In this document: piece after piece, positions 497 to 17,298 of the stretch | Numbering within the stretch: the stretch's first letter is position 1 | Layout: each line of letters starts with the position of its first letter | Source: Alphaproteobacteria bacterium | GTDB taxonomy: Bacteria > Pseudomonadota > Alphaproteobacteria > TMED109 | Assembly (NCBI GenBank): GCA_022825235.1 | Contig: JAJDYI010000036.1 | Span: 1 to 45,824 of the forward strand | Direction: 5' to 3' | DNA: 45,824 bases | Program-made: the position numbers and the translations under genes | Notes under the pieces: model-generated | Seen by the model: only the letters and a program-made list of their open reading frames with translations | The model's database searches: none | What the model was told of the DNA's origin: nothing

Positions 497-572
<76 letters not shown>

Positions 573-584
573 TCATGCGTTCGG

Positions 585-613
585 ACGATACGCCCGAGAC
601 CCGTGGTGGGCAA
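585..613 (-). promoter_or_regulatory. Probable promoter of tRNA-Lys
   Basis: On the minus strand TTGCCC (608-613) is separated by 17 nt from TATCGT (585-590), and the tRNA begins 12 nt further on. Spacing and position fit a housekeeping sigma-70 promoter, although both hexamers are imperfect. Confidence 0.45.
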
Positions 614-1044
614 CCGGCGCTCTTCCACAAAATTGAGAATGATCAATTCAGGTTGCCCGGAAGCAGGGCACCCCTTGAAACGTGGAATCAGCTGAGTCGG
701 CCCTGATGAGACAAACCATCTCGTGGCGGGCTGGCGGGGCTGGCCGAGATGTCTGGGATCCGGAGGGGACCAGCAGTACCAATTGGAAAGTACTGGTTCC
801 TCGCACAGGGCGTGCCGGACGTCCGTACCAACTGTTCACCAACGCTTGGCCCGACAGTTGATCTCCACGGGATCTCCGGCAATCGTCGAAGCTTGGCGTT
901 CCTTGACGCCGGCGACGGAAACGCGGAGCTTCAACCGCGGCCGGGGCGAGGTCACACGAGAGATTCGCATGACGGCGACTGGTGGCATCCAAGGTGGGTT
1001 TGGCTTCTGCTGGTTCCCTCCGGGGTCGGGGGAGGGGTAGCCCG
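614..1044. other. Intergenic region with no supported gene
   Basis: This stretch separates the tRNA-Lys promoter from the flavoprotein gene. Open frames occur on both strands, but none shows a recognisable domain or a ribosome binding site. Only the ribosome binding site of the next gene (about 1028-1037) is identifiable. Confidence 0.5.
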
Positions 1045-2295
1045 GTGCGCGTCGCCGTAGTGGGTGCCGGCATCGTTGGAGTTTCCACGGCCGAGTGGCT
1101 GCGCCGTGACGGACACGAGGTCTCCCTCATCGACCGGACCCGGCCGGGCGAGCCGGGCCAAGCTTCTTTTGGTAACGCCGGCGTGCTCGCCGCGAGTTCT
1201 GTAGTTCCGGTCTCGGTGCCGGGGCTGGTGTGGAAGCTGCCGGGCTATCTCCTGAGCCGTGATGCGCCGCTACACCTTCACTGGGGCAGCCTGGCGCGGT
1301 CCATGCCCTGGCTCCTGCACTTCCTCTGGAACGGAAGGCGCACCAAGGTCGAGCAGGTCGCCAAGGCGCTCGCGCCACTGATCGGTGACACGGTGGAGCA
1401 GCATCTCGCCCTCGCACGCGGAACCAATGCGGCGTCCTTTGTCCGATCGGCCAACTACACCGCCATCTATCGAAACCGCGCGGCGTTCAGGAAGGACGCA
1501 TTCGTTTTCGGCCTGCGCCGAAGTTTGGGCGGCGAATGGGATGAGTGGGATTGCGCGACGCTGAACGCACACGAACCGGAGTTGTCGGGCGCCTATGCTT
1601 TCGCGGCCTCGTTCCGCGACCACGGCTTTATCTCGTCGCCAGCGGGTTACGTAGCGGCTCTCGCGGAGCATTTCGAACGCGAGGGCGGAAGGTTCCTGAC
1701 CGGGGAGGCAGTCGACATTGTGCCTTGCGAGAGTGGCGGGGCGGCAGTCACCTTGGCGGGCGGCGCCCGGGAACACGCCGACCGGGTGGTGTTGGCCGCA
1801 GGAGTGTGGTCGGCAGGGTTGGCAAGACGCCTCGGTTACAAGACGGCGATGGTCGCCGAGCGGGGCTATCACGTGATGCTGTCGGGCGCTTCTTACATGC
1901 CGCGTGGCCCGATCATGGTGGCCGATGCCAAGACGTCGGTTACGCCGATGGCGGACGGGCTGCGCTTCGCAGGGACAGTGGAGGTGGCCCCCGTCAACGC
2001 GCCCCCAAGCCGGGCACCGGTCCAGGCGTTGCGGCGTACCGTCCGGCGGGTCTTCCCCCGGCTTTCATGGCAATCGGAAACGACGTGGATGGGTCAGAGG
2101 CCGTCGACGGTCGACAGCCTGCCATTGATCGGACCGCTTCCAGATGCGCCGGCCGTTCTCTTCGCGTTCGGCTCCCAACATGTCGGTATGACGATGGGGC
2201 CGCGGATGGGCAGGCTGATTGCCGATTTGGTGGCCATGCGTCGGCCCAATATCGACCTGCACCCCTATCGGGTCGATCGTTTCAATCGTGGATGA
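1045..2295 (+). CDS. FAD-dependent oxidoreductase, D-amino acid dehydrogenase (DadA)-like
   Basis: A DAO-family flavoprotein of 416 aa that probably oxidises a D-amino acid or another secondary amine. The N-terminus holds the dinucleotide-binding motif VGAGIVGVSTAEWLRRDG, and an acidic residue (LIDR) ends the second strand of the Rossmann fold. The C-terminus has the FAD-contacting stretch GSQHVGMTMGPRMGRLI, as in DadA-type enzymes. I chose GTG at 1045 because GGGGGAGGGG lies about 8 nt upstream and the FAD motif starts at once; an ATG 63 nt upstream would add a tail unusual for this family. It stands alone and is convergent with the next gene. The family covers DadA, glycine oxidase and sarcosine-type enzymes, so the substrate is unknown. 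Confidence 0.85.
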   Translation: MRVAVVGAGIVGVSTAEWLRRDGHEVSLIDRTRPGEPGQASFGNAGVLAASSVVPVSVPGLVWKLPGYLLSRDAPLHLHWGSLARSMPWLLHFLWNGRRTKVEQVAKALAPLIGDTVEQHLALARGTNAASFVRSANYTAIYRNRAAFRKDAFVFGLRRSLGGEWDEWDCATLNAHEPELSGAYAFAASFRDHGFISSPAGYVAALAEHFEREGGRFLTGEAVDIVPCESGGAAVTLAGGAREHADRVVLAAGVWSAGLARRLGYKTAMVAERGYHVMLSGASYMPRGPIMVADAKTSVTPMADGLRFAGTVEVAPVNAPPSRAPVQALRRTVRRVFPRLSWQSETTWMGQRPSTVDSLPLIGPLPDAPAVLFAFGSQHVGMTMGPRMGRLIADLVAMRRPNIDLHPYRVDRFNRG

Positions 2296-2401
2296 TCCGC
2301 CAGTACCTCTTCCAGCGCCCCGATACCTGAACCGGATGACGGCGAACCCGTTAGGTCGTCGCTTTCACGAGCCGCGGCTGCTTCCAGTCATCGAAAGAGG
2401 C

Positions 2402-3586
2402 CTACCACTGCGAGGATTGCTCTGCGTAGACGTGATCGGGCAACCGGTAGCTGGTTCCCCTCTCGTCGAACATCGAAACCTCGAGAATGGTGGTCAGGTT
2501 CGCGGTTTCGGCGGCGCGCTTGGCGCTCAACTTTCCCAAAATCCTCTCGACCCGATTCAGCGTCCGGAACTTCCACAGGACGCCGAAAGTGGAACTCTCG
2601 GGAAACATGAGCTCGTCGGCGAGTTGGACGCCGATCAGTGCACGCGATAGCTGCGCGATGTAGCCGGCAAGCTTCCGGCGCTCGTTGCGGTCGTCGAGAC
2701 CTGCGAACAGCGGCGCGGAATTGATCAGCGATGATGCGAGGGCAATCGACTCCGCCGATGGCGCCGGTTCGCAAAGCCGTCCGATACGAACGACTTCGAG
2801 CGCGTCTTCTTCGCTGCGGTACAGGATGGTCTCGGGAATGCCCATCAGATAGCCGGAATACCGCCACACTGCCATGAAGCTCCGGCGCTCCTCCTCGGAG
2901 AAGGACCCACCCAGGCGCTTCAGGTGCTGCAGCAGCCTGGCGGAAAAGGCGGCGACCGCGAAACCCAGATGCGCGGAACTGATCGGCGTGCCCAGTTCGT
3001 CGGTGTCCCATTCCTCGGAACGGTCCAGCAGTTGCCGGATCTTCGCGTGCACCAGCCTTATGCGAACGGAATGCGTCCACCCGTCGGCATGCGCGTCCAT
3101 GCCGCCGGGCATGAAGATCTCCAGCATATGCCGGTTATTCTGCTTCAGCCGACGCACGCCCTGGTCGCGCAGCCGCCCGGTGAGAAAGAACGACTTCGCG
3201 ATGTTGGTGGAGAACCCCTCCACCAGCACCCCGCCCACCATGCCGGCGAGAATCAGCCGCGTGTTCCGGTGGAACATGCGGCAGCCAGGCTGGAATGTGG
3301 ACAGGTTGAGCCAGTCCGGCGGTTCGGCGCAGTGCGCGAAGAATTCCCTGACCGATGCTGGTGCGTCGCGAAGCGCATCGCCCTCGCGATCGTGCATGCC
3401 GAGCTCGATCAGCCTGGCCGACTCATCCTGTCCGAGCGGCTCGAGTTCGGCGACCATGGCGTCGGCGAGCGGATCGCCGATCATGGTGTGCGCGAGGTAA
3501 GTCGCCGTCCGTTCGGGATCGACTTGCCGGCCCCGGGAGAATCCCTCTGCGTAGGCGGCGGGGATATTCTTCGTATCTGGCGTCAA
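2402..3586 (-). CDS. Oxygenase MpaB family protein (DUF2236)
   Basis: A 394-aa protein of the MpaB/latex-clearing-protein family, whose characterised members are haem-dependent oxygenases. Family signatures are visible in order: FFLTGRLRDQGVRRL near residue 130, then WTHSVRIRLVHAKIRQLL near 170 with the conserved histidine, then WDTDELGTPIS and WRYSGYLMGIPETIL. The length is typical. There is no signal peptide, so it is probably cytoplasmic. The frame opens with TTG at 3586, with AAGG a few bases upstream; an internal Met at about residue 36 is a less likely start because family-like sequence precedes it. It is convergent with the flavoprotein and not in an operon. Substrate unknown. Confidence 0.82.
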   Translation of the reverse strand: MTPDTKNIPAAYAEGFSRGRQVDPERTATYLAHTMIGDPLADAMVAELEPLGQDESARLIELGMHDREGDALRDAPASVREFFAHCAEPPDWLNLSTFQPGCRMFHRNTRLILAGMVGGVLVEGFSTNIAKSFFLTGRLRDQGVRRLKQNNRHMLEIFMPGGMDAHADGWTHSVRIRLVHAKIRQLLDRSEEWDTDELGTPISSAHLGFAVAAFSARLLQHLKRLGGSFSEEERRSFMAVWRYSGYLMGIPETILYRSEEDALEVVRIGRLCEPAPSAESIALASSLINSAPLFAGLDDRNERRKLAGYIAQLSRALIGVQLADELMFPESSTFGVLWKFRTLNRVERILGKLSAKRAAETANLTTILEVSMFDERGTSYRLPDHVYAEQSSQW

Positions 3587-4055
3587 TTCCGGCCTTGTAC
3601 CTGCCGATCTAGGGGCAGGTCCCGGTGAAATTACGCATGGTCATACATGCCCTGCGACGACAAGGGCCGCGCAAATGCCCCATCCACGTACGCACGGAAT
3701 TATGGTGAAACCCAGCCATGGGTAAAGGACGTGCCACAAGAAACGTCAGTTCTTGACACATGAACGCGGCACTGGGACCCGGGGCGACGCCGATCGACAG
3801 GACGACCGTGGCGGATGGACTGGCGGTCGCGGGCCTGCGGCCGACCGGCGGCAGCTTGGCAATTGAGTTCGAATACGGCGGCGCGGCCGTGCAGCCCGCG
3901 ACTGAACCGGGCAGTGGCTTCGGCCCCGGCGACGGCGTGCTGGCGGAGCACGATCTGCTGGCGGATTCCCGCACGTTCCTCGCCCGGTTGCGCAACGCCC
4001 GTGCGCTTGCGGTCCGGGAGTACCCTCGCTAGGGCGGGGGTTGGGCGACGCGGAC
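3587..4055. other. Degenerate region upstream of the DUF2285 remnant
   Basis: One 90-codon frame (3760-4032, plus strand) begins with ATG just after a TTGACA, but its product matches nothing I recognise and it ends in a different phase from the DUF2285-like frame that follows. It may be the decayed N-terminal part of that gene, or chance. Confidence 0.4.
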
Positions 4056-4261
4056 ATGTTGAAGGCAGTGGAGGGGGTGACGGCCGGGAAGTCGCTGCGC
4101 CAGATCGCGCTTGAGATCCTCGGCGCGGAATCAATCGCTCCGAGGGACTGGTAGCCCGACAGCGACGTGCGGGCACAAGTCTCCCGGCTGGAAAAGAAGC
4201 GCGCTTTCTCATGCAGGGCGGGTATTTCGAGTTTGCGGCCGGGCGGCGGCCGCAGGTGTGA
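4056..4261 (+). pseudogene. DUF2285-type protein remnant (nonsense and frameshift)
   Basis: From 4056 the frame reads LKAVEGVTAGKSLRQIALE, then GAESIAPRDW, a TAG stop at 4152-4154, and PDSDVRAQVSRLEKK. A shift to another frame near 4205 restores LMQGGYFEF, ending at TGA 4259-4261. In order these match the DUF2285 C-terminal domain: a leucine-rich helix with an S-x-R-x-I-A turn, then a D-W/S-D-x-R segment, then the closing L-x-x-GGY. DUF2285 genes are typical of integrative conjugative elements and plasmids in alphaproteobacteria. Two inactivating lesions imply a dead gene and a decayed mobile element. The family assignment is by motif memory. Confidence 0.55.
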
Positions 4262-4547
4262 TGGGGGAATGTCAAGCGATTGCGCTCGTTGAGTCCGTCG
4301 GCTGCCCCGCATCATCAAAGCTGGGCGCGAGAACCGCCGATGCCGTTGGTGCGAATTGGCAAGCAGACGTCACGGTCCGACGGAACGCATTCACGTACGC
4401 GATTCGAGAAAGGAGGGGATGGCGCAGCAGGCGCGGCATGCAACGTCAGGAATTAGTGCGAATCCGGTGACAATTCGATGACGGAAAACGGGCAAAGAAG
4501 AATGCGGAATTCAGGCTGGCAAGAAATCAAGAGAAATGTTTCCAACC

Positions 4548-5405
4548 CTACCCACGCCAGTGCGCAGCTCGCGCATTTCTTCTAGCAGCTGAGAGATCGT
4601 GCCTGAGCTTCTGTGCCCAATATCGAATACCGCTATCCTTAGATTCTCTTGCACACCTCCGTAGCGCAGCACGAAGCACTTTGTTGCTCATTAGGTTTTC
4701 TATTGCTTCAAGTCGTGGGCGAATAGGCCCCAGACCTAACCACTCTGCTGCGTCCCACGCCGGATCACGTTTGCTCTCAGACAATATTGCTTTTCTTACC
4801 TCTTCCTCAATGCGGTGGTCAATGCAATTTGGGGTCCAGCCGAACATTAGCGACAACAGCGCACGTATAATTTCCATATAAACACGCCCGATCATTCCTC
4901 CGTCCGTGTTGTTACCACCCTCGATACTCGCATACCTATTTGTTACAAGTACTTCGGCTTTGCCATGTTTCCGAAAATAGTCAAGGATGTTTGTATTTCG
5001 CTGGATGGTTGTGACGCTTTCCAGGTATTGGATAGCGGCGTCGAAACATCGCTCTAGCTCTTTGAATGCCTTGGGGCTGTGTTGTTGAATATCGGCCATC
5101 AGTCGGTGTAGTTCGTGCCCGCGAGAACGAATCTCTTTCTCTGACATGCCAGCGTCCAACAGAATCGCCTTGAGGCCCTTCTCGATTGCCTCGTGAGCAT
5201 TCCTAGCATCCGCCCTTAACTTAGCTTTTGAATATGCTGAGGAGAGTAATCCAATCTGTAGGAGTCTCTTAAAGAATTTATCTTCAGGTTGTGCGTCTAG
5301 GTTCGCTGCATGAGTCAAGCGGCTATGTATATCGCGCGGCGGTCTCTCCAGTTCGTCGAGAGCAAACCTCAAATCCGCCCATACGTCTTCCTTGTTTAGG
5401 GACAT
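4548..5405 (-). CDS. Hypothetical HEPN-like protein, AT-rich
   Basis: A protein of 285 aa (293 if begun at the ATG at 5429). I chose the ATG at 5405 because AAAAGG lies about 10 nt upstream, whereas the first ATG has no such site. The N-terminal half is helical and contains AHEAIEKGLKAILLDAG followed by RGHELHRL, which resembles the A-x-E-K-x-L-K-x-x-L and G-H-x-L signatures of HEPN domains. RGHELH fits the spacing of an R-x4-H motif, but its position is not that of the classical HEPN ribonuclease motif, so catalysis is uncertain. Base composition is visibly poorer in GC than every neighbour, indicating recent transfer. It is divergent from the ATPase operon. HEPN proteins are common in toxin-antitoxin and antiviral loci; that role is inference. 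Confidence 0.45.
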   Translation of the reverse strand: MSLNKEDVWADLRFALDELERPPRDIHSRLTHAANLDAQPEDKFFKRLLQIGLLSSAYSKAKLRADARNAHEAIEKGLKAILLDAGMSEKEIRSRGHELHRLMADIQQHSPKAFKELERCFDAAIQYLESVTTIQRNTNILDYFRKHGKAEVLVTNRYASIEGGNNTDGGMIGRVYMEIIRALLSLMFGWTPNCIDHRIEEEVRKAILSESKRDPAWDAAEWLGLGPIRPRLEAIENLMSNKVLRAALRRCARESKDSGIRYWAQKLRHDLSAARRNARAAHWRG

Positions 5406-5429
5406 TGTGATGTTTGCCTTTTGGCGCAT

Positions 5430-5772
5430 GCTGAAGAGACTATAGCTTTTGTCTGTCCCTGAAATTACTGTACCAAATTGAGTCCATTTGGAAGCTTCGC
5501 ACTTTCGTCACCTAAAGCGGTCCAAAAAGAAATGTGCGATCGTTCGGTTGATGGGTCCAATCCACACGTGTAATCGAGAAGGCGCGTGGCCAATCCAGGG
5601 ACGACATCTGTCAGTGGATCTCGGTTGGCAAGCGCCTCCCGGCCGACAGAGCGAGAGGCGAGGCAGGCGAGATCGAATCAGGGGCGGGAAAGCCGGTTGT
5701 GCAGCAGTGAAGGTGCTGCGAAATGCAGGCAGGGTAGACGGTCCTACGGAATGCGGCAGATCTGGATTCAGG
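5430..5772. other. Divergent intergenic region
   Basis: This space separates the HEPN-like gene (leftward) from the ATPase operon (rightward). I found no gene in it. The repeat-containing promoter begins right after its right end. Confidence 0.5.
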
Positions 5773-5811
5773 GTTGACAACAAGGTTGTTGCCAACGATA
5801 TTGTTGCCAAC
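5773..5811 (+). promoter_or_regulatory. Promoter with three 15-bp-spaced GTTGNCAAC palindromes
   Basis: Three 9-bp palindromes, GTTGACAAC (5773-5781), GTTGCCAAC (5788-5796) and GTTGCCAAC (5803-5811), start exactly 15 bp apart, and a half site, GTTGG, starts at 5818 on the same period. A sigma-70-like promoter is embedded in them: TTGACA at 5774-5779, a 17-bp spacer and GATATT at 5797-5802. The first palindrome covers the -35 hexamer, the second ends next to the -10, and the third covers the expected transcript start. This layout is that of an operator array where a bound protein would block transcription. The ATG of the first ATPase follows at 5832 with GGAGGAGAG as ribosome binding site. Confidence 0.65.
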
Positions 5812-5831
5812 GTTTTCGTTGGAGGAGAGCC

Positions 5832-7088
5832 ATGATCCGAAAAGGCGGCAGCAACTGGGTCGACGGAGAGAACTTCTTCGACCGCGAGTCGGAGCTCGAA
5901 GCGTTGGAAGAGCGGGTGCGGGAGAAAACCCACACCCTTCTGACCGCACAGCGGCGGATGGGTAAGACCAGTCTGGTGCGGGAGCTGCAGCGCCGTCTGG
6001 CCGAAACGGGAGACTTCGAGGTCGTCTTCGTCGATCTGGAGGCGGCTACCGATCCGGCCGATGCGATTGCCGAAATCGGAGTTCAGGCGAAGGCCGTGCG
6101 TGCGGCTTGGGATCGGATCATGACCAGTTTCGCCATTCTGGTGAGGAGCGCTGGCGGCCGGATCGAGGAACTCTCGCTTGCGGATCTGAAGGTCAAACTG
6201 CGGGCCGGGATCGATGCGGGAAATTGGTCGCAAAGAGGTGACGCGATCTTTGCCGCCCTGTCGGAAAGTGGCCGGCCGGTCGTGCTCGCAATCGACGAGT
6301 TACCGATACTGATAAACCGGCTGCTGAAGGACGAGACAGGACGCGTGACACCGGAGGGGAAACGGGAGGCTGACGCGTTCCTGAGCTGGCTGCGCAAGGC
6401 GGGTCAAGCCCACAGGGATCAGGTCACGCTGATCCTGTCGGGCAGCGTGAGCCTGGAGCCGCTGTTGGAACAGGCCGGGCTCAGCGCCCAAGCCAACATC
6501 TTTTCTCCTTACGATCTGAAACCGTGGAGCGAGGAAACTGCCGTTTCCTGCCTGGAGGCGCTTGGCCAGTCCTACGAGGTCAGTCTCGGGCCGGAGGCCG
6601 GGAGGGACATGTGCCGCAGGCTGCGTTGTTGCATCCCGCACCACGTCCAGATGTTCTTTGACAGGATGCACGATCATCTGCGGCGCACCGGGAGAAAGGC
6701 CGCCTCGCTGGAAGATGTCGAATGGGTCTATGTGCGGGAGATGCAGGGCGTCCGGGGGCAGGTGGACCTGCAGCATTACGAGGGCCGGCTGGAGACGGTC
6801 CTCGGGAGAACGGGGTACACGGTTGCGCTGGAGATTCTCACGGCAGCGGCAGTCGACGGCGGTATCGCTGCCGAAACGATCGACCGGTACCGCGAATATT
6901 TCGCGACGGGAGACGCGCACGACGGAGACGGCGCGCCCGCGTTTGACCATGTGCTGCACGTCCTGCAGCACGACGGCTATCTGGAACCTAGGGACGGCGG
7001 TTACCGGTTCGTGTCCGGACTCGTCGAGGACTGGTGGCGCGGACGCTACGGGCAGAGGTTCGTGTCCGTGTTCGACCGGCAGCGCTGA
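5832..7088 (+). CDS. P-loop ATPase, first gene of ATPase/TPR pair
   Basis: A 418-aa soluble ATPase of the archaeal-ATPase/AAA type. The N-terminal FFDRESELEAL leads into a variant Walker A, LLTAQRRMGKTSL (residues about 37-48), in which the usual glycines are replaced, as is normal for this family. Walker B is VVLAIDE at about 150-156. A downstream SGS (VTLILSGSVSLEPLL) occupies the sensor-1 position. The C-terminal third looks like winged-helix or lid sequence (DHVLHVLQHDGYLE). The start is ATG 5832, with GGAGGAG upstream and a regulated promoter before it. The stop is 17 nt before the next start, so the pair is one operon. Function is unknown; I infer it works with the TPR ATPase as a signalling or defence pair. 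Confidence 0.8.
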   Translation: MIRKGGSNWVDGENFFDRESELEALEERVREKTHTLLTAQRRMGKTSLVRELQRRLAETGDFEVVFVDLEAATDPADAIAEIGVQAKAVRAAWDRIMTSFAILVRSAGGRIEELSLADLKVKLRAGIDAGNWSQRGDAIFAALSESGRPVVLAIDELPILINRLLKDETGRVTPEGKREADAFLSWLRKAGQAHRDQVTLILSGSVSLEPLLEQAGLSAQANIFSPYDLKPWSEETAVSCLEALGQSYEVSLGPEAGRDMCRRLRCCIPHHVQMFFDRMHDHLRRTGRKAASLEDVEWVYVREMQGVRGQVDLQHYEGRLETVLGRTGYTVALEILTAAAVDGGIAAETIDRYREYFATGDAHDGDGAPAFDHVLHVLQHDGYLEPRDGGYRFVSGLVEDWWRGRYGQRFVSVFDRQR

Positions 7089-7105
7089 GAACGGGAGTCG
7101 GACCG

Positions 7106-10100
7106 ATGGCCGTGGCCGCCAGGAAATACAATCCTGGTTTTCTCTCGATCGATGAACTTGTCGCGACCTTCTGCGTCCGGACGGCCGAATACGAAACCCT
7201 GATTGAGGCACTACGCGAGTGCTCGGGTAGCGCGAACCCCCATCAGATCGTGATCGGGCCGCGGGGCAGCGGAAAGACCAGCCTGCTCCTGCGGGTGGCG
7301 GCGGAGGTGCCGCGCGATGCGGATCTGGCGGCGCGCTTCTTCCCGATCGTGTTCGCGGAGGAAAGCTACGAGGTCTCGACAGCCGGCGAGTTCTGGCTCG
7401 AATGCGTTTCCCGACTGGCTCATCAGGCGCCGCGCCGGGACGGCGATGTCGACTTGCAGCGCACCTTCGAGGAACTGCGCACCATCCATGACGACCGGAC
7501 GCTGGAGGACCGGTGCCTCGGGGTGCTGCAGGACCTTGCAGATCGGGAAGAGAAGCGCCTCGTACTGATCGTCGAGAACCTGAACATGATGTTCAGGGAC
7601 ATGGGCGACGACGATGCGGGCTGGCGGCTGCGGAAGGTGCTGCAGACCGAACCGCGGATCGTTCTGCTGGCTAGCGCGACCAGCCGGTTCGACCAGATGG
7701 ACGATCCGAAGAAAGCGCTCTACGAGCTCTTCCGGGTGATCCGGTTACAGCCGCTTGACACGGAAGGCTGCGCGACCTTGTGGCAGACCGTGTCGGGGCA
7801 GACACGGGCGCCACGGACGATCCAAGCATTGCGGATTCTCACCGGCGGCAGCCCGCGGTTGCTCACCATCGTGGCCCGGTTCGGCGCAAACCTGTCGTTC
7901 CGCGAGCTGATGGCCGATCTTCTCGACCTTGTCGATGACCATACCGAGTATTTCAAGAGCCACCTCGATGCGCTTCCGGCCCAGGAGCGAAAGGTGTATC
8001 TCGCCCTAGCCGATCTCTGGAAACCGGCGAATACACGCGAGGTCGCGGAGCGGGCCAGGCTCGGAACCAGCAAGTGCAGTGCCCAGCTGGCCCGTCTGGT
8101 CGATCGGGGTGCCGTGGAGGTGAGCGGCGGCAGCCCGCGGCGCAAGCTCTACTATCTGACCGAGCGGCTCTACAACATTTACTACCTGATGCGCCGGGCG
8201 CGCGGACCGGCACCGCTAATCGATGCGCTGATCCGCTTCATGGAGGCGTACTACTCCACGGACCAGCTGAAGGAGGTTGGGGCCCGCATGGCGCGTGAAG
8301 CGCTGGGGTCTGACGGCGGCGCGTTGGCGATTTACCGAATGGCCTTCGAGCGTCTCGTTGGGCTGCCGTCCCTCGATCCGCATCGCGAAGAACTACTTTC
8401 GCTGGCGTCGCCTGCCCTGGCGTATGCGCCCTGTGAGTTTTCTGAAGTGTCCGCGGCGCCGTCGGCCACCAGGGACCTCTTGAGGAAAGCGTTGGCGCTC
8501 GCGAAAGGGGGTCGGTTGCAGGATGCCGTGGCGGCCTGGGACGAGGTCGTCCGGAGGTTCGGGAAGAGCGATGCGCTGGCAGATCTCGAACAGGTGTCGA
8601 TGGCGCTCGTCAACAAGGGAAAGGCGTTGGGCAATCTGGGGAGAGCGGAAGAAGCATCGGCGGTGTGGGACGACGTGGTGCGGCGGTTTGGGGCAGACGA
8701 CGGGGAGGGCCACCCTCTGGCGGTGGCGACAGCGCTCGCGAGCAAGGGCGTATTGCTGGGCAACCTAGACCGCCACACGGAAGCGCTGACAGCCTGGAAC
8801 GAGGTCGTGCGACGCTTCGGCACGAGCCGGGTGCCGGCACTCGAGATGCTAGTAGTGAATGCGATGATCGGGACTACGGTCGCGCTGAATGCTTTGAACC
8901 GGCCCCAGGAAGCCCTGGATGCCTGCGACGAAGTGCTGGAACGCGTCGGCAATAGTGATTCGTCCGGGGTTCACGGTGTAGTGGCGGTCTCCATGGTCGC
9001 ACGGGGGCACGCACTCATCGCGCTGAACCGCGTCAACGAAGCAATAGACACCTGGGGTGCCGTGGTGCAGCGATTCGGGACGAGCGACTCTCTCAGAATC
9101 GTCGAACAGGTTGCTTCGGCGCTTGTAAATATCGGAACAGCGCTCTTCAAATCGGGCCGGTTGGAGGAGGCGCTGACCGCGCTCGACGGGGTCGCGGAAA
9201 GCTACAAGGCAAGCGATGCTCCGTTCTTTCGGGAGGTGGTGGCGCGCTGTTTCGCCAACAGAGGCAACGTACTGGCCGCGTTGAAGCGGGAAACGGAAGC
9301 ACTCTCGTCGTGGGAAGAAGCGATCCGGGGCTTCGAGGCGGTCGGTTCGCCGGATGCGGCGGAACCGTATTGCAACGCGCTGATGAACAGGGCGGCGGCG
9401 CTGCACAACGCTGGAAGGTCCGAGGAAGCCTTGCAACAGTGGGGCGACATGGTGGAACGCTTCGGTGGCGACAATCGGACCGGTGTTCTTGCCATGATTG
9501 CGCATGCCCAGACGCACAGGGGCGCCGTGCTGGAACAGTTGGGCCGTTTCGAAGAGGCGCTCAAGGTCTGGGAGCAGGTCGAAGACCGCTTTGGAAACAG
9601 CGACGTGCCGGAGTGGGTCGCGCTCGCGGCAAGCTCCCTTCAGCACAGGTGCGCCGACCTGTTCGAGCTGAATCGGCCGGAGGAGGCGCTCGCGACCTGC
9701 GACCGGGCGGTCGATCGCTTCGGGGAAAGTGTCGTGCCGGGAGTGGTCGATGCGGTCGCGGGGATTCTACTCAACAAGGGCATCGTGCTCGCCACCACGC
9801 ACAGGAACGAGGAGGCGCTGGCGGTCTGGGACGAGATCGAGCGGCGATTCGGAACCAGCGAGGTGCCGGAAATTTCGAAGCAGGTTGCCTCCGCTCTCGT
9901 CGGCAAGGGTGCGACACTGGTCCATATGAACCGACCGGAGGACGCGATTGCGGTGTGGAGCGACGTCGTGCACCGGTTCGGGGAGGGCGATGCATCCTTG
10001 CATCACGAGGAGATTGCGACGGCTGTCCTCAACAGCGTGGCGGTATTGGGCTCGTTGAACCGGCCGGAGGAGGCGCTTGAGGCCTGTGACGACGCGCTCC

Positions 10101-10732
10101 GTCGATTCGGGGATAGCGAAGAGCCCTATGGTGTCGAGACAGTCGCGCAAGCTCGCGTCAACAGAGGTGCCCTGCTGGTCGCTCTTGACCGGACCGAGGA
10201 AGGGCTGGCGGCGTGGGACGAGGTTGTCCGGCGCTTCGAAGCGAGCGATGTACCGGTGCTTCGAGACACCGCGGAATCGGCGCTGTGCAAGCGGGCACTG
10301 CACGAATTGACCGAAGGCCGCGCAGGGACCGCCGTCGGATTTCTCGACCGTGCGCTGCTGCAGGGGCGGGCGGGAATGCCGGACAGCAGAGTGCGGGGCC
10401 ATTTGATGCGGGCGCGGGCATACTTGGCGCAAGGCGATGGCGAAGCATGCGCCGGGGATGTCGAAAGGGCGCTGTGGATTCTTCCCGAACTGAACGTCTT
10501 GCCGAGAGACGTGCTGGTGGCCCTGGCCGATCTCTCGACGGGTGTCGGGCCGGAAAGGATGTGCGAACTGATCAACTCATCGCCCGCCGGCGATCTCCTG
10601 CTGCCGCTTAGAACGGCGCTGGAGAGGGAGCTTGGGCTTGAGCCGAGGGTGGCCAGGGAAGTCGAAGAGATTGCGGAAGACATACGCCGGGAACTGCTCG
10701 CCCGGCCTAACGACAGTGGTCAGCGCCAGTAG
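7106..10732 (+). CDS. P-loop ATPase with winged helix and fourteen 43-aa TPR-like repeats
   Basis: A 1208-aa multidomain protein. Residues 1-290 form a P-loop ATPase: NPGFLS, then GPRGSGKT (51-58), a conserved-looking FAEESYEV...GEFWLE stretch (83-99), Walker B-like RLVLIVEN (151-158), a sensor-like LLASATSRFDQ and GGSPR. Residues about 295-345 look like a winged helix (REVAERARLGTSKCSAQLARLVDRGAVEV region). Residues 467-1068 are fourteen tandem repeats of exactly 43 residues with no insertion or deletion, consensus NRPEEALAVWDEVVRRFG plus a linker and VASALVNKG. The tail is TPR-like. I chose ATG 7106, with CGGGAG 8 nt upstream, over an ATG at 7034 that lies inside the preceding gene. The architecture resembles STAND-type sensors, where repeats detect a partner and the NTPase switches state; that role is inference. 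Confidence 0.85.
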   Translation: MAVAARKYNPGFLSIDELVATFCVRTAEYETLIEALRECSGSANPHQIVIGPRGSGKTSLLLRVAAEVPRDADLAARFFPIVFAEESYEVSTAGEFWLECVSRLAHQAPRRDGDVDLQRTFEELRTIHDDRTLEDRCLGVLQDLADREEKRLVLIVENLNMMFRDMGDDDAGWRLRKVLQTEPRIVLLASATSRFDQMDDPKKALYELFRVIRLQPLDTEGCATLWQTVSGQTRAPRTIQALRILTGGSPRLLTIVARFGANLSFRELMADLLDLVDDHTEYFKSHLDALPAQERKVYLALADLWKPANTREVAERARLGTSKCSAQLARLVDRGAVEVSGGSPRRKLYYLTERLYNIYYLMRRARGPAPLIDALIRFMEAYYSTDQLKEVGARMAREALGSDGGALAIYRMAFERLVGLPSLDPHREELLSLASPALAYAPCEFSEVSAAPSATRDLLRKALALAKGGRLQDAVAAWDEVVRRFGKSDALADLEQVSMALVNKGKALGNLGRAEEASAVWDDVVRRFGADDGEGHPLAVATALASKGVLLGNLDRHTEALTAWNEVVRRFGTSRVPALEMLVVNAMIGTTVALNALNRPQEALDACDEVLERVGNSDSSGVHGVVAVSMVARGHALIALNRVNEAIDTWGAVVQRFGTSDSLRIVEQVASALVNIGTALFKSGRLEEALTALDGVAESYKASDAPFFREVVARCFANRGNVLAALKRETEALSSWEEAIRGFEAVGSPDAAEPYCNALMNRAAALHNAGRSEEALQQWGDMVERFGGDNRTGVLAMIAHAQTHRGAVLEQLGRFEEALKVWEQVEDRFGNSDVPEWVALAASSLQHRCADLFELNRPEEALATCDRAVDRFGESVVPGVVDAVAGILLNKGIVLATTHRNEEALAVWDEIERRFGTSEVPEISKQVASALVGKGATLVHMNRPEDAIAVWSDVVHRFGEGDASLHHEEIATAVLNSVAVLGSLNRPEEALEACDDALRRFGDSEEPYGVETVAQARVNRGALLVALDRTEEGLAAWDEVVRRFEASDVPVLRDTAESALCKRALHELTEGRAGTAVGFLDRALLQGRAGMPDSRVRGHLMRARAYLAQGDGEACAGDVERALWILPELNVLPRDVLVALADLSTGVGPERMCELINSSPAGDLLLPLRTALERELGLEPRVAREVEEIAEDIRRELLARPNDSGQRQ
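8504..10309 (+). repeat. Fourteen in-frame 129-bp units encoding 43-aa TPR-like repeats
   Basis: Units begin at 8504 and every 129 bp after it, the fourteenth at 10181. They are conserved mainly at the protein level (R-x-x-E-A-L, W-D-E-V-V-R-R-F-G, A-L-x-N-K-G-x-x-L). The DNA units differ widely, so this is an old, selected array rather than a recent tandem duplication. The length is longer than the 34-residue classical TPR. Confidence 0.85.
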
Positions 10733-11174
10733 CGTGCAGAAATCCGGGGTTGGCCGGTACCTCGATCTCTTGGCCGGGCGGCAACCGCACCGCTGAGCGC
10801 GAGCCTTTCCCGGCATCGTTCCGAGTAATTGACACGTCCCCGTGCCTGCATTGCCTTCGTCGCGGCCAGACTGGGCCGTCCATCACCCGAGGTAGGGGTC
10901 GGATGGTTTGCGGACCATGTTGGACCTGCGCGGGGGGGGGCCGGGCAACTGGCGTTCCTACCGTGACGGGGGCACGGGGCGCAGCAGTTTCCCGCCTACC
11001 CGGACGACGGGTCCGTCCCACGGCCCAAAATACGCCAAACGCTGCTTCAAAGCCCCCAGGACATTCCGATCGAAATGTTTGCCAATTGTTTGCGAGGCAG
11101 GTAATCGGCGCTTCCTTGGGCTTACAGTCAATCCAACTGGAATCAATTTGTCGGCGACTTCGGGAAGCCGGGGC
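10733..11174. other. Intergenic region after the ATPase operon
   Basis: No gene is supported. It contains copy 2 of the 19-bp repeat (11075-11093) and a run of nine G at about 10931-10939. I did not find a clear intrinsic terminator after the operon. Confidence 0.5.
11075..11093. repeat. 19-bp direct repeat, copy 2, 3' of tRNA-Gly
   Basis: It is identical to 405-423. It lies 81 nt beyond the CCA end of the minus-strand tRNA-Gly, almost the same relative position as copy 1 beyond tRNA-Lys. The flanking sequences differ, so the similarity is confined to the repeat. Confidence 0.6.
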
Positions 11175-11248
11175 TGGAGCGGGTGATGGGAATCGAACCC
11201 ACGTAACTAGCTTGGAAGGCTAGGGCTCTACCATTGAGCTACACCCGC
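11175..11248 (-). tRNA. tRNA-Gly(UCC)
   Basis: A 74-nt minus-strand tRNA with acceptor GCGGGTG/CACCCGC and anticodon loop CTTCCAA (anticodon UCC). The T loop is GTTCGATTCCC. The discriminator is T and CCA is encoded at 11175-11177. It follows tRNA-Tyr by 42 nt on the same strand, so the two are probably one transcript. Confidence 0.95.
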
Positions 11249-11290
11249 GTCGTGCCGCTTGCCGCGGTTGTTCACAACCGTTGGGTTGGA

Positions 11291-11377
11291 TGGTGCAGGG
11301 GGTAGGATTCGAACCCACGTAGACGTAACGTCGCCAGATTTACAGTCTGGTGCCTTTAACCACTCGGCCACCCCTGC
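11291..11377 (-). tRNA. tRNA-Tyr(GUA)
   Basis: An 87-nt class II tRNA on the minus strand. The acceptor 5' strand GCAGGGG pairs with CCCCTGC, the anticodon stem-loop CCAGACTGTAAATCTGG gives anticodon GUA, there is a long variable arm, and CCA is encoded at 11291-11293. The Tyr-Gly tandem order is common in proteobacteria. Confidence 0.95.
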
Positions 11378-11535
11378 AACACGGCCCAGGTTCACGCAAC
11401 CCCGATCCCGGCTGCGCTGCCGCGCAGGGGTTATGCCAGAAATGCGATGGGCCTGCAAAACACCGGGTTTCGGGCCACGCCTGGCGGCACGGGGGGCCCG
11501 ACCGTCCGCGCCCTCCAGCGGGTTTGGCGTGCGTT

Positions 11536-12939
11536 CTACTTGCCGGCAGCCCGCATGTCGTCCTCGTCAGGCATCAGCATGAACTCGGGATACGCCTCGA
11601 TCCCGAGCTCCGCGACATCCTGACCCAGTCCCTCGACCCGCTCCGTCACCCGTACGCCGATGAGGAGGTCCAGGACCTTCCAGATCACGAACGAGGAAAC
11701 GAACACGAACGCACCGATGGCGACAATGCCGGTGAGCTGCACGAGGAAATTGCCCCCCGCCGCAAAGCAGACCGCCAGCGTGCCCCACACGCCGGCGACC
11801 AGGTGGGCGGGCACGGCCCCCACCACGTCGTCGAGTTTCAGGACTTCCATCAGCCGCATGCCCGCTGTACAGAGGAAACCGCCGACGCCGCCGATCAGGA
11901 CCGCCCAGTAGTGGTCCACGAAATCCGGGCCGGCGGTGACGGCAACCAAGCCGGCGATCGCGCCGTTGAGACCCGCGAGCAGGTCCACGCGGCCGAACAG
12001 CGGCCGGGAAACGGCAATGGCGACGATCACGCCTGCTGCCCCCCCGAGCGTGGTGTTGACGAGCACGATGCTCATCGCCACGGCGTCGACGGCGCCGGCC
12101 AGCGCGAGCTGGGAGCCGCCGTTGAAGCCGAACCAGCCCATCCAGAGGATGAAGACCCCCAGCGTCACCGCCACCACGTTCGACGGCGGGGTCGGCTTGA
12201 TCGTCCCGTCAGGGCGGAACTTGTGCAGTCTCGCGCCGATGACGTAGATGCCGGCGAGGGCGGCCCATCCGCCGGTGGAGTGGACGATCGTGGACCCCGC
12301 GAAGTCCTGGAAGCCCATGTCCGAGAGCCAGCCACCGCCCCATGTCCAGGCGCCGACGATGGGGTAGATGAGGCCGGTCAGGAGCAGCACGAACGCAAAG
12401 AACGTCCACAGTCGGACGCGTTCGGCGATGGCCCCGGACACGATCGACGCGGTGGTCGCGACGAACACCATCTGGAAGAACCAGTCCGACATCGTCGAGT
12501 AGCCGGCCTCGACGACGGCAGGTTCGGCATCGGTCGCCTCGGCGAGCAGGGCTAGCTCTGCGGCCGACGACCCGTAGAAGAGCTTCAGGCTGCCCGCAAA
12601 CTGGCCGACGTCGACGTACATCAGGTTGTAGCCGATGAAATAGAACGCGAGGCCCGCAATGGAGTAGAGGCCGATGTTCTTCAGGCAGATGACGGATGCG
12701 TTCTTAGTACGGACGGAGCCCGCCTCCAGCATGGTGAACCCGGCGCACATCCACATGACTAGGACGCCCCAGATCAGGAACGAGAAGGTATTTAGGACGA
12801 AACCCGTGGCCGCGTCGGCGGCGGCCTGGGCAGCGGTCGGGCAAAGGACGGCGAGGACGGAAGCCCCGAAGGCGACCACGGGCGCTCCGGTGTGGTGGCC
12901 CCGCCTATCGCCGGAACCAGTCGACAAGTCTCGCTTCAT
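11536..12939 (-). CDS. Ammonium transporter (Amt family)
   Basis: A 467-aa inner-membrane ammonium channel. A probable cleavable signal peptide (about residues 1-39, ending PTAAQA) precedes a hydrophobic core of about eleven membrane helices. Family signatures include FQMVFVATTASIVSGAIAER, DFAGSTIVHSTGGWAALAG with the first pore histidine, and VPAHLVAGVWGT with the second. The ATG at 12939 has a strong GGAGGT 6 nt upstream. No glnK/PII gene lies next to it in this window, although the two are usually paired. A candidate sigma-54 promoter upstream suggests nitrogen-controlled expression. The C-terminal acidic tail (EDDMRAAGK) is cytoplasmic, where PII would normally act. Confidence 0.95.
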   Translation of the reverse strand: MKRDLSTGSGDRRGHHTGAPVVAFGASVLAVLCPTAAQAAADAATGFVLNTFSFLIWGVLVMWMCAGFTMLEAGSVRTKNASVICLKNIGLYSIAGLAFYFIGYNLMYVDVGQFAGSLKLFYGSSAAELALLAEATDAEPAVVEAGYSTMSDWFFQMVFVATTASIVSGAIAERVRLWTFFAFVLLLTGLIYPIVGAWTWGGGWLSDMGFQDFAGSTIVHSTGGWAALAGIYVIGARLHKFRPDGTIKPTPPSNVVAVTLGVFILWMGWFGFNGGSQLALAGAVDAVAMSIVLVNTTLGGAAGVIVAIAVSRPLFGRVDLLAGLNGAIAGLVAVTAGPDFVDHYWAVLIGGVGGFLCTAGMRLMEVLKLDDVVGAVPAHLVAGVWGTLAVCFAAGGNFLVQLTGIVAIGAFVFVSSFVIWKVLDLLIGVRVTERVEGLGQDVAELGIEAYPEFMLMPDEDDMRAAGK

Positions 12940-13376
12940 GCTGCGACCTCCATGGCGGCATCGGCCGGGCGCGGGTCGGCTGGTGGCGCTCCAAGCGTCG
13001 TCGAGCGTCTCGATGCGCCGCTAGACGTCGGGCAAAGCGCAATAATCTGCCTGCCGTCGGACGGTACACTGCCCGTTAGCTGTAGGCAATGCAGATGCCG
13101 ATTCTCAGCGCTCGCGGCCTATCGCAGGCCGCTCGAAACGGTGACGGTTTCAGGGTGTTCGCGTTGGCTATCGGGCTGTCAAGGCGGTTGCTATCACGGG
13201 TGCCGTGTGCTGCCGGTCGCCGTAACGCGCCAGGGGGCGTCGGCCGCGGCGGGCAGCCGCATGATGCCGCGGACTGTCTCGACGGTTTTGACGGGCCTTT
13301 CCCGGGCCACTACGTTGGCTAGGCGGACCAGCGACGTCGAGGTTGGCCGGGTGCCCGTGGGAGCGTTGTGGCGCCG
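12940..13376. other. Divergent intergenic region between amt and rpsM
   Basis: About 440 bp without a supported gene. It carries the sigma-54-like site for amt (13085-13100), and the rpsM promoter starts at its right edge. The short open frames look like chance. Confidence 0.5.
13085..13100 (-). promoter_or_regulatory. Candidate sigma-54 promoter of amt
   Basis: On the minus strand the sequence CGGCATCTGCATTGCC has GG and GC separated by 10 bp and matches GGCA...TTGC of the TGGCAC-N5-TTGCW consensus. It lies about 145 bp upstream of the amt start, in the right orientation. Ammonium transporters are typically under NtrC and sigma-54. I did not find clear NtrC sites. Confidence 0.45.
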
Positions 13377-13404
13377 TTGACGGCATTGCCATAGGTATTA
13401 TGCT
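13377..13404 (+). promoter_or_regulatory. Probable promoter of the rpsM operon
   Basis: TTGACG (13377-13382) and TATGCT (13399-13404) are separated by 16 bp, about 60 bp upstream of the rpsM start. This local promoter is expected because the genes that normally precede rpsM are absent. Confidence 0.5.
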
Positions 13405-13462
13405 TGCCGGGTTCCCCGCCCGTAAGAGGGCGCGGTTCCTTCTGCATTTCGGAGATCTTGCG

Positions 13463-13834
13463 GTGGCTCGGTTGGCCGGTGTCAATGTGCCCTCGGAAAA
13501 GAGGGTCGATTATGCGCTTACCTATATCTACGGCGTCGGTCGGACGACGGCGCGGCAGATCCGGGAGCAGGCTGGCTTGTCCGACGACAAGCGGGTGCGG
13601 GACCTCACCGAGGCCGAGCTGGGGCGCGTGCGCGAGATCGTCGACCGCATGCCGATGATCGAGGGGTCACTCCGTCGCGAGAAGGCCATGCAGATCAAGC
13701 GCCTGATGGATCTCGGCTGTTATCGGGGGCTGCGGCACCGACGGGGCCTTCCGGTCAACGGGCAGCGCACCCACACGAACGCCCGGACCCGGAAGGGAAG
13801 GGCGCGGCCCGTGACCGGCAAGAAGAAGGCCTGA
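13463..13834 (+). CDS. rpsM: 30S ribosomal protein S13
   Basis: A 123-aa protein of the small-subunit head that contacts tRNA and the 50S bridge. It begins [20 protein letters not shown] and ends with the [11 protein letters not shown] signature and a lysine-rich tail (TGKKKA), full family length. The start is GTG at 13463, with GGAG 8 nt upstream; a longer open frame reaching 13343 has no S13 homology. It is first in the block rpsM-rpsK-rpoA-rplQ. The usual upstream neighbours secY and adk are missing, replaced by the divergent amt gene. Confidence 0.97.
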
Positions 13835-13875
13835 CGTCCCAGGCCGCGTTTGGCATTTCAACGGAGTGACGCCAC

Positions 13876-14259
13876 ATGGCTCGTGAACGACGTCGGCGCA
13901 AGCAACGAAAGAACATCACCGCTGCGGTCGCGCACGTCAGCGCCACGTTCAACAACACGATCATCACGATCACGGATCACCAGGGCAACACGCTCGCGTG
14001 GTCGTCGGCGGGCGAGCGGGAGTTCTCGGGCTCGCGCAAGGCCACCCCGTACGCCTCACAGATGGCGGCGGAGGCGGTCGGCCGCAAGGCGCAGGAGCAC
14101 GGGGTGAAGACCCTTGAGGTCGAGGTGCGCGGCCCCGGGTCGGGCCGGGAATCGGCGCTCCGGGCCCTGCAGAGCACCGGCTTCGTGATCACCGCCATCC
14201 GGGACGTCACGCCCATCCCCCACAACGGTTGCCGCCCGCCGAAACGCCGCCGGGTCTGA
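13876..14259 (+). CDS. rpsK: 30S ribosomal protein S11
   Basis: A 127-aa protein of the 30S platform. It has the family core [20 protein letters not shown] and ends with the conserved [18 protein letters not shown]. The N-terminus is very basic ([13 protein letters not shown]), as usual. It starts at ATG 13876 with GGAG in the 42-nt gap after rpsM. It is co-transcribed with rpoA. Confidence 0.97.
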
Positions 14260-14344
14260 CGGGAGTCAGGACGCCGAGACCGAGGACCCCGCCCTCGAGG
14301 GGCGCGGGTGTGACGTCCGCCACCAGTCAGGAGACACAATTCGC

Positions 14345-15391
14345 ATGAGCGATTTCAGGTTGGGTTCCGAACACTTGATCAGTCCGTCGGCCGTCGACGT
14401 CCGCCCGGGCACCGATCCGGCGCGCAAGGCGACGCTCGTCGTTGAACCCTTGGAACGTGGTTTCGGACTCACGCTTGGGAACGCGCTCCGGCGCGTGCTG
14501 CTGTCGTCGTTGCCCGGCTCAGCGGTGACGGCCATCCGCATCGAAGGGGTGCTGCACGAGTTCTCGTCGATTCCCGGCGTGCGCGAGGACGTGATCGATC
14601 TCATCCTGAACGTGAAGGCGATCATCCTCCGGACGCACTCGGAGCGACCGCGCCACCTGGAACTCCGGGTCAAGGGGCCGGAGACCGTGACCGCCGGGAT
14701 GATCACGCCGACCGCTGATGTCGACATCGTCAATCCCGACCTGGTCCTATGTCATCTCGACGACGGCGCAGAGCTGAACATGGAGCTGACCGTCGCGTCC
14801 GGGAAGGGGTACGTGCCGGCCGCCCAGAACCGGCCGGAGAACGTCTCGGTCGGCCTGATTCCGGTCGATGCAATCTACAGCCCGATCCGCACCGTGGCCT
14901 ATCAGGTCCAGAACACCCGGGTCGGGCAGGTGACGGACTACGACAGTCTGTCCCTCACCGTCGAGACCGACGGCACCCTCACCCCGTCCGAGGCGGTCGA
15001 GCGCGCGGCGCGCACGCTCAACGATCAGCTCGGGATCTTCATTACCAGCGGGACCATGGCCACCGTCCGTCCCGCCGCGGCGGTGACGCCGGAGGTCACG
15101 GCATCGCTCAACCCGCACCTTCTCAAGAAGGTCGAGGAGCTGGAGTTGTCCGTGCGGGCGGCCAACTGCCTGAAGAACGACAACATCGTCTATGTCGGCG
15201 ATCTGGTCCGCAAAACCGAGGAGGATCTCCGGAAGACACCCAACTTCGGGGCGCGCTCGATGAACGAGATCCGTGACGTGTTGAAGACCATGGGTCTCTC
15301 GTTCGGAATGCAGGTGACCGACTGGCCGCCCGAGAACATCGAAGAACTGGTCCAGGCCCAGGCGGATGCCCGCCTGGCCCGCATGCGCTGA
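14345..15391 (+). CDS. rpoA: DNA-directed RNA polymerase subunit alpha
   Basis: A 348-aa RNA polymerase alpha subunit. The N-terminal assembly domain shows [20 protein letters not shown] and [20 protein letters not shown]. The C-terminal domain shows [21 protein letters not shown] and GARSMNEI, the surface that binds UP elements and activators. The length is slightly above the E. coli protein (329 aa), mainly at the C-terminus, as in other alphaproteobacteria. The ATG at 14345 follows GGAGACACAATTCGC. Confidence 0.97.
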
Positions 15392-15414
15392 ACGAGGACC
15401 GGGGAGGCTACGTC

Positions 15415-15918
15415 ATGCGACACCGGCACAGCGGCCGCAAGCTCAACCGCACGAGCGCCCACCGGAAGGCGACCTTCCGGAATCTGGCCGCCGCGCTGAT
15501 CAAGCACGAGCGGATCCGAACCACCCTGCCCAAGGCCAAGGAGCTGCGGCCGATCGTGGAACGCCTGGTCACGCTGGCCAAGCAGGACACCCTGCACGCC
15601 CGGCGCACGGCCATGGCCCGCTTGCCACGCGACGCCGACATCGCGAAGCTGTTCGGGCCGCTCTCCGAGCGGTTTGCCGCCCGATCCGGCGGCTACACCC
15701 GGATCGTCCGAGCCGGGCATCGGTACGGCGACGCCGCGGACATGGCGTACATCGAATTCGTCGACCGGACCCCGGCGGCGCGGGCGCCCGTGGCGCAGGC
15801 CCCGGCGGCGGTGGCGGTACCGGAGGCGCCCGAGGCGCCCGGCACCACGCCCGCGCGGGACGACGCCGACAAGCAGCCGTGGTGGCGTCGTCTGGGGTTC
15901 AACCGGCGGAACGACTGA
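15415..15918 (+). CDS. rplQ: 50S ribosomal protein L17 with C-terminal extension
   Basis: A 167-aa protein. Residues 1-120 are a normal L17 located near the peptide exit tunnel ([43 protein letters not shown]). Typical bacterial L17 ends soon after this. Here an Ala/Pro-rich linker and a charged tail with two adjacent tryptophans ([13 protein letters not shown]) add about 45 residues. Alphaproteobacterial L17 often has some tail, so the extension is notable but not unique. It is the last gene of the rpsM block. Confidence 0.96.
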
Positions 15919-15975
15919 TGGGGTGATGCCGGCGGCGGCCAGCGTCCCGCCCGGTGCGCTTCAGGCGGGCGGGCC

Positions 15976-17298
15976 CTGACCGACCTCTTCGAAGCGGCCG
16001 GGCTGGAATCGGCAGCCCCCGAGCGGCCACTGGCCGATCGCATGCGTCCGCGGACGCTCGGGGAACTCGTCGGGCAGGAACACCTGGTCAAGGGGGACGG
16101 CCCCATCGCCTCCATGGTGTCCACCGGCGTGGTCCGGTCGGCCATCCTGTGGGGCCCGCCGGGCACCGGCAAGACCACGATCGGCCGTCTGCTCGCTGCC
16201 GCCGGCGACCTTGAGCTCGTGCAGATATCGGCCGTAGGGCAGGGCGTGCAGACCCTCCGCAAGGCCTTTGCCGACGCCGCGGCTCGGAGGCGCGAAGGCC
16301 GAGGCACCCTGCTCTTCGTCGACGAAATCCACCGCTTCAACCGTGGCCAGCAGGACGCGCTGCTGCCCGCCGTCGAGGACGGGACCGCGACCCTGATCGG
16401 CGCGACCACGGAGAACCCCTCGTTCGAGGTGGGCGCGGCGCTGCTGTCGCGCTGCCGGGTACTCACGCTTCGGCGCCTCGAGGAACCGGCGCTTGAGGAG
16501 CTGCTGCAGCGCGCGGAGGCGCGCCTCGGCGGGCCGCTCGCATTGCAGCCGGAGGCGCGGGCCGCGCTGCTCGGCATGGCCGACGGCGACGGCCGGATCC
16601 TGATCAACCTTGCCGAGGACCTTGGCGCGGACCCGCCAACGGTACCGCTCGACCGCACCGACCTGCGGGCCCGCGTGCAGGCGCGCGCCCTGCTCTACGA
16701 CCGCAAGGGGGATCAGCACTACGACCTGATCAGTGCCCTCCACAAGTCGGTGCGCGGGTCGGATCCGGACGCGTCGCTGTACTGGCTCGCACGCATGCTG
16801 GCCGCCGGCGAGAATCCCCGGTACGTGGGGCGGCGCCTGATCCGGATGGCCGCGGAGGACGTAGGGCTGGCGGCCCCCGATGTCCTGGTTCACGCGGTCG
16901 CCGCGTTCGACGCCTACGAGCGGCTGGGCTCTCCCGAGGGTGAGCTAGCGCTGGCGCAGGTGACGATCGAACTCGCCTGCGCACCGAAGTCGAATGCCGC
17001 ATACACGGCCTACAAGGCGGCGTTGGACATGGCCGGGTCGTCGGGGTCCCTGCCGCCGCCGCTCCACATCCGGAACGCGCCGACGGCGCTGATGCGCGAT
17101 CTCGGTTATGGGGCCGGCTATGCCTACGACCACGATTCCCCCGACGCGTTTTCCGGTCAGAACTACTTTCCGGACGACTTGCCGCGCCAGCGTTTCTACC
17201 GACCCACCGATCGGGGGCAGGAGCATGCCATCCGCGACCGCCTGGCGCGCTGGGAGGCGATCCGGTCCGGCCGCATCGCGCCCACTGAATCGCAGTGA
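15976..17298 (+). CDS. rarA: Replication-associated recombination protein A (RarA/MgsA AAA ATPase)
   Basis: A 440-aa clamp-loader-like AAA+ ATPase acting at stalled replication forks. Walker A is GPPGTGKTT, Walker B is LLFVDEIHRFNRGQQDALL, sensor 1 is LIGATTENPSFE, and the C-terminal tetramerisation part includes DPDASLYWLARMLAAGE. The family's N-terminal segment TDLFEAAG...PLADRMRP is in frame upstream of the first ATG (16042). No ATG, GTG or TTG lies between the rplQ stop and that segment. The first residue of the segment coincides with CTG at 15976, preceded by AGGCGGGCGG, so I take CTG as the start. If ATG 16042 is used, 22 conserved residues are lost. Confidence 0.93.
   Translation: MTDLFEAAGLESAAPERPLADRMRPRTLGELVGQEHLVKGDGPIASMVSTGVVRSAILWGPPGTGKTTIGRLLAAAGDLELVQISAVGQGVQTLRKAFADAAARRREGRGTLLFVDEIHRFNRGQQDALLPAVEDGTATLIGATTENPSFEVGAALLSRCRVLTLRRLEEPALEELLQRAEARLGGPLALQPEARAALLGMADGDGRILINLAEDLGADPPTVPLDRTDLRARVQARALLYDRKGDQHYDLISALHKSVRGSDPDASLYWLARMLAAGENPRYVGRRLIRMAAEDVGLAAPDVLVHAVAAFDAYERLGSPEGELALAQVTIELACAPKSNAAYTAYKAALDMAGSSGSLPPPLHIRNAPTALMRDLGYGAGYAYDHDSPDAFSGQNYFPDDLPRQRFYRPTDRGQEHAIRDRLARWEAIRSGRIAPTESQ

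Follow-up and report, generated by a model that had tools for sequence, protein, structure and literature searches.

A likely HEPN-type gene, moved laterally between distant bacteria, beside an ATPase/TPR gene pair

The minus-strand gene at 4548-5405 of the window (the whole 45,824-nucleotide stretch of alphaproteobacterial DNA that was analysed) is read here, with about even confidence, as encoding a stand-alone AF0298-type HEPN-T protein with a C-terminal domain of its own, and as a horizontally moved one-gene effector, probably of phage defence. The protein is a rare addition to a well-known fold family, one that defence toxins directed against RNA often employ, and four members of its own family are known. 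Besides the window copy, these comprise three homologues of 52-72% identity that were recovered by a single scan across 84,980 species genomes, namely L002 and L004, both from Caldilineaceae (72% and 52% identity, respectively), and L003 from a gammaproteobacterium (70%). They represent three of 27 pattern-matching stretches in a scan that finds only sequences sharing an exact short peptide with the query. The features of the gene and its product are as follows.

4548-5405, minus strand: the HEPN-type gene, 285 amino acids plus stop, recognised by its open frame, PF05168 match, three homologues and dN/dS
4836-5405, minus strand: HEPN domain, residues 1-190, from structural alignments with HEPN chains and a Pfam match over residues 64-124
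5160-5204, minus strand: RNAHEAIEKGLKAIL, residues 68-82, a helix invariant in 4/4 sequences, with two overlapping Ex3K motifs
5115-5117, minus strand: His 97 of an HEL/HQL motif, invariant in 4/4 sequences, a candidate alternative catalytic histidine by analogy with the AF0298-type description given in a passage of PMC3710099
4914-4940, minus strand: NRYASIEGG, residues 156-164, in which R157 and E162 are invariant
4551-4835, minus strand: C-terminal helical domain, residues 191-285, with a model of its own and without a clear structural match

Fold assignment and candidate active site

The minus-strand reading frame is open over 4548-5429, and the ATG at 5405 is most likely the true start of the gene, because sequence comparison revealed an in-frame TGA 18 nt 5' of the equivalent ATG in all three homologues. 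The Pfam HEPN profile (PF05168) matches all four family members, with a best E of 3.3e-5. The window protein itself matched with E 3.5e-4 and 21.1 bits, which is 0.9 bits below the curated cut-off of 22, and the window gene scored 23.4 bits, above the cut-off, in a six-frame search of the genome. A model of the whole protein, calculated from the four sequences, was helical throughout, with a mean pLDDT of 66.6 and a pTM of 0.51, and with pLDDT values under 50 for residues from about 130 to 170, R157 included. Alignment of this model with VIA-align returned HEPN chains in all of the top five rows (6m6w, 2hsb, 7bxo, 6m6u and 4nqf), spanning model residues 1 to about 190 with 121-128 residues aligned and an rmsd of 3.4-3.8, at Z values of 7.4-7.7. 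These lie below about 13, the level that Z must reach to settle the matter for helical bundles, and may reflect a common helical arrangement. The next, unrelated row had a Z of 6.7. Foldseek, run with the same model, had no match with an E value below 0.28, the first HEPN chain appearing at rank 17, and the family profile agreed weakly with HEPN proteins from the genus (probability 6%, E 0.006, 43 columns). An HEPN-type fold for residues 1-190 is nevertheless likely, because the PF05168 sequence match and the Z values point to it together, the Z values alone being insufficient, and the HEPN-like segments recognised in the first-pass annotation of this DNA are borne out by the PF05168 match.

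Several further matches were taken as chance: those of the window protein to the Nop (E 0.05) and MutS_III (E 0.6) profiles, those to IL2 (E 0.015) and DUF2179 (E 0.25), obtained for one family member each, that to NCBIfam MzaA (15.6 bits, where the cut-off is 800), and those to the PDB lipoprotein GNA1162 (E 0.64) and a nucleoprotein (E 1.4). Neither the PHROGs profiles nor PADLOC gave a match to the window protein, and the viral structures of BFVD gave none with E under 1.7. Residues 191-285, when modelled alone, yielded a pLDDT of 89.9 and a pTM of 0.79; against the PDB, the best Foldseek E for this domain was 0.93 and the best Z was 5.9, to a designed protein. Sensing, restraint and oligomerisation are guesses at its role.

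Across the four family sequences, 120 of the 286 alignment columns are invariant. The acidic Ex3[KR] motif of helix 2 occurs twice, as E72/K76 and E75/K79, both invariant in 4/4 sequences. The classical Rx4-6H motif is lacking at the end of helix 3, where R157 is invariant and Glu 162 stands at the histidine position in all four sequences. An R64-x6-H71 string is present, but inside the Ex3K helix and ahead of helix 3, and the only invariant histidines in the four-sequence alignment are H71 and H97. RNase activity of the protein is uncertain because the classical motif is absent. In its passages on these proteins, PMC3710099 describes the AF0298-type HEPN-T proteins (2hsb) as having lost the motif histidine while retaining the basic residue, with a second conserved histidine, N-terminal to the motif, from which an alternative active site may be built; AbiV is described there as also lacking the motif histidine, with an alternative histidine as in HEPN-T. 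The family has the same combination, in that R157 is kept, the motif histidine is lost and H97 (together with H71) is invariant and N-terminal. By sequence and by analogy, then, the window family fits the AF0298-type description, and H97 with R157 would constitute its putative active site. If this reading holds, the family would provide a compact test of a prediction made in 2013 (PMC3710099, in the same passages), namely that RNA may be cut via the second histidine without the classical one.

The absence of the motif histidine from all four sequences is also compatible with an HEPN domain that acts without catalysis, either as an RNA or protein binder that regulates or blocks translation, or as a former MNT-HEPN toxin without its antitoxin. 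Motif-less HEPN proteins may act in such a manner according to the relevant passage of PMC3710099, in which some are noted as still toxic in a genome-scale screen. Consistent with an orphan toxin as well as with a stand-alone effector, no MNT motif was found in frames of at least 60 aa in the window, L002, L003 or L004 by a motif scan, as distinct from a profile search, that did find the motif in the controls L052 and L057; by motif, no nucleotidyltransferase gene lies alongside to form an MNT-HEPN toxin-antitoxin module. Against loss of catalysis, H97, R157 and the Ex3K residues have stayed unchanged across two phyla, as would suit an active site, and a non-catalytic domain is considered unlikely, if still deserving of some weight. 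MNT-HEPN modules do occur elsewhere in the window's genome (L057:1041-1794, contig C25) and in a genome of the same genus, G006 (L052).

Composition, selection and lateral movement

The composition of the gene was compared with that of 38 other genes, hand-picked within the window. Its GC content is 0.497, against a mean of 0.683 (sd 0.033; z -5.7), and its GC3 is 0.493, against a mean of 0.875 (sd 0.051; z -7.5), and its codon usage deviates more than that of any other gene among the 39, at a distance of 0.84 against 0.54 for the next gene. The earlier description of the gene as the only clearly low-GC one therefore holds among the 39 window genes tested, for both GC and GC3, and its codon usage is foreign by the same comparison. 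In all four copies, the window's and those of the three homologues, the GC content of the gene is below that of its own surroundings.

None of the other six genus genomes has the gene, and among 61 relatives searched it was found in the window's own genome alone. Sampling of the class (385 genomes) and the phylum (349 genomes) returned the window's own genome and one match in G358, which was rejected as chance since it is part of a longer frame that is of a different kind. In the classes of two homologues (396 and 369 genomes) the centre genome alone matched, and in the family of G408 two of 46 genomes matched; these sampled sets overlap. Plasmids and phages gave no match to the family, and three scans of viral contigs gave none, bar a 23-residue match (L070) without profile support. 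Recent acquisition of the gene, as proposed in the first-pass annotation, is likely because of its low GC, its foreign codon usage, its absence from the six genus genomes and the presence, in another phylum and in another proteobacterial class, of relatives that share 70-72% identity with it. Lateral transfer of the gene between distant bacteria is established, as judged by comparison of the copies.

Values of dN/dS were 0.26-0.44 across the six pairs of the four copies, ratios that cover their whole divergence as opposed to just the time since arrival in the window genome; by this measure, the family has been under purifying selection. Similarity among the four copies comprises the gene and a leader of roughly 25 nt. 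With an integron cassette in mind, the flanks of the four copies (60-80 bases per side) were compared by eye, which showed the leader in common and no shared element downstream. Inverted repeats bounding the gene were not evident among the best 25 of 39 by length, and scans for terminators and promoters gave no more matches than shuffled sequences. The record series to which L002 belongs (MPML00000000) is named in a passage of a paper on the sponge Aplysina aerophoba (PMC5649159), a habitat link that concerns L002 only.

The ATPase/TPR pair and the surrounding loci

The neighbouring features of the window that bear on the association of the gene are listed here.

5832-7088, plus strand: ATPase (PF01637/PF13401), by profile match
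7106-10732, plus strand: AAA_16 plus TPR protein, by profile match
3768-5782, no strand: a 2,015 bp block holding the HEPN gene, replaced by 136 bp in G006, from blastn of the window against L030

The HEPN gene and the ATPase gene that starts at 5832 point away from each other across 426 bp of intergenic DNA, a distance and arrangement that favour the earlier suggestion of a third component of the pair at 5832-10732. The pair is absent, however, from all three homologue loci (13-17 kb each), so that none of the homologues adjoins it. Conversely, the pair ATPase has matches in six of the 367 class genomes, one of these being the window's own, and no member of the HEPN family was found at any of the four pair loci fetched (from three genomes), the upstream side of the ATPase gene being visible in three of these; at the locus in G304:C56 the contig edge falls inside the ATPase gene and the upstream side is unseen. 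Weak homologues of the pair in G062 and G351 were covered in the profile search through short loci that reached about 1.5 kb to either side. In G312 the match to the pair ATPase (L048:5686-6859) is split into three pieces in different frames, and this copy may be damaged.

Comparison with G006, the nearest of the six other genus genomes (AmtB 96%), bears on the same question. Window positions 497-3767 and 10557-17756 align to G006 at about 93% by blastn, and the 136 bp of G006 gave no alignment with the HEPN block. A scar in G006 (L030:3774-4040, contig C68) joins the N-terminal 39 residues of the ATPase to the C-terminal 57 residues of the TPR protein, and since both ends of the pair are kept, the pair was once present in G006 and was removed by internal deletion. 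The HEPN block either entered the window lineage or was lost from G006; as the alignments have it, block and pair changed separately either way. In G001, the same interval has neither the HEPN block nor the pair. A promoter-like site of the pair's own, at 5774-5802, also speaks against a shared unit, though such sites are expected by chance. With no linkage at the homologue or pair loci and a G006 scar that lacks the block, the idea of a third component was rejected; it is highly improbable, and the least likely of the rival explanations. The suggested third component is thereby removed from the ATPase/TPR pair, and the HEPN gene probably lies next to the ATPase genes without being their partner.

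The HEPN block also carries, at 4053-4151, a broken fragment resembling PF10074 RovC_DNA-bd (E 0.003, below the cut-off) that is terminated by a stop; this family is DUF2285, common near mobile elements. The fragment, and the variation of the region between species, would suit passenger DNA without present function in a decaying island. Against this, the frame of the gene is intact and the dN/dS values given above, reflecting the whole divergence of the four copies, are low enough to speak for selection, and such an explanation is judged very unlikely. Elsewhere in the window, a 20-base direct repeat (one mismatch) occurs at 405-424 and 11075-11094, with three copies only in 3.85 Mb. Both window copies are located 70-80 bases 3' of a minus-strand tRNA (Lys and Gly), the third copy (C62) has no tRNA within 1.5 kb, and the G006 alignment begins exactly at the 3' end of tRNA-Lys. 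The repeats are possibly integration remnants.

Neighbours assigned to defence families by PADLOC are present at two of the three homologue loci. In L002 (locus 568-10614) the HEPN gene is situated between HmaB (1.8e-121) with HEC-01A (4.9e-180) and HEC-01B (2.7e-91) on one side and HmaC (2.3e-74) on the other, all on one strand; no helicase was seen in this locus, whose contig ends about 570 bases before HmaB. In L004, an ATPase like NsnB/HEC-03B (3.2e-50) is encoded on the opposite strand 1.9 kb before the HEPN gene, and a kinase matching PD-T4-6 (1.3e-40), a match that perhaps any protein kinase would give, follows 0.4 kb after it. The two neighbours tested in L003 gave no PADLOC match. The arrangement in L002 could feasibly mean that the protein serves larger defence systems, Hma/BR for example, as an accessory effector, the window copy being an orphan away from its system, and standalone HEPN genes are reported with BREX and DUF499-centred systems in a section of PMC12839542. 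Different neighbours surround the window copy and the homologues in L003 and L004, however, and leader and gene move alone, and accessory status is regarded as improbable.

Proposed role and comparison with known systems

The preferred reading, a stand-alone and mobile HEPN-T effector, would operate as follows. The gene would spread singly between distant bacteria and reside in defence-like islands. When a phage infects the cell, or under comparable stress, the HEPN portion would bind, and probably cut, cellular RNA via the alternative site of H97 and R157, and this attack on RNA would halt translation, while the C-terminal domain may sense the trigger, or restrain or oligomerise the HEPN part. 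The defence role, the RNA target, the active site and the job of the C-terminal domain are all what we infer. If the reading holds, the gene would offer a clear example of one defence gene that has passed from phylum to phylum. A more ambitious version, in which the four proteins form an uncatalogued one-gene abortive-infection family, combining an AF0298-type RNase with a displaced H97/R157 site and a new helical sensor or restraint domain, and moving as a self-contained cassette (the gene with some 25 nt of leader) between unrelated bacteria from a common habitat, which might be marine sponges, is doubtful.

Among known systems, the AF0298-type HEPN-T proteins (PF05168; 2hsb) resemble the window family in the Pfam match of all four members, in structural alignment (Z 7.6 over 121 residues) and, as far as the account in PMC3710099 extends, in the retained arginine, the lost motif histidine and the conserved histidine N-terminal to the motif. 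Unlike them, the window family has about 95 extra residues, which make up a conserved C-terminal helical domain, and no MNT partner was seen. The HepT toxin of the MntA-HepT toxin-antitoxin system (6m6w, 7bxo, 6m6u) provides the top-ranking structural alignment, with a Z of 7.7 across 126 residues, whereas the window family is without an adjacent MntA-like gene and the classical Rx4-6H motif, and has the extra C-terminal domain. AbiV, by its description in that same account, shares the loss of the motif histidine and the alternative histidine found in HEPN-T, but the window protein gave no Pfam match to an Abi family. Finally, the L002 homologue lies within a locus of the DUF499-centred (Hma/BR) type, beside which other HEPN genes are found, whereas the window copy is without Hma/BR genes among the proteins tested.
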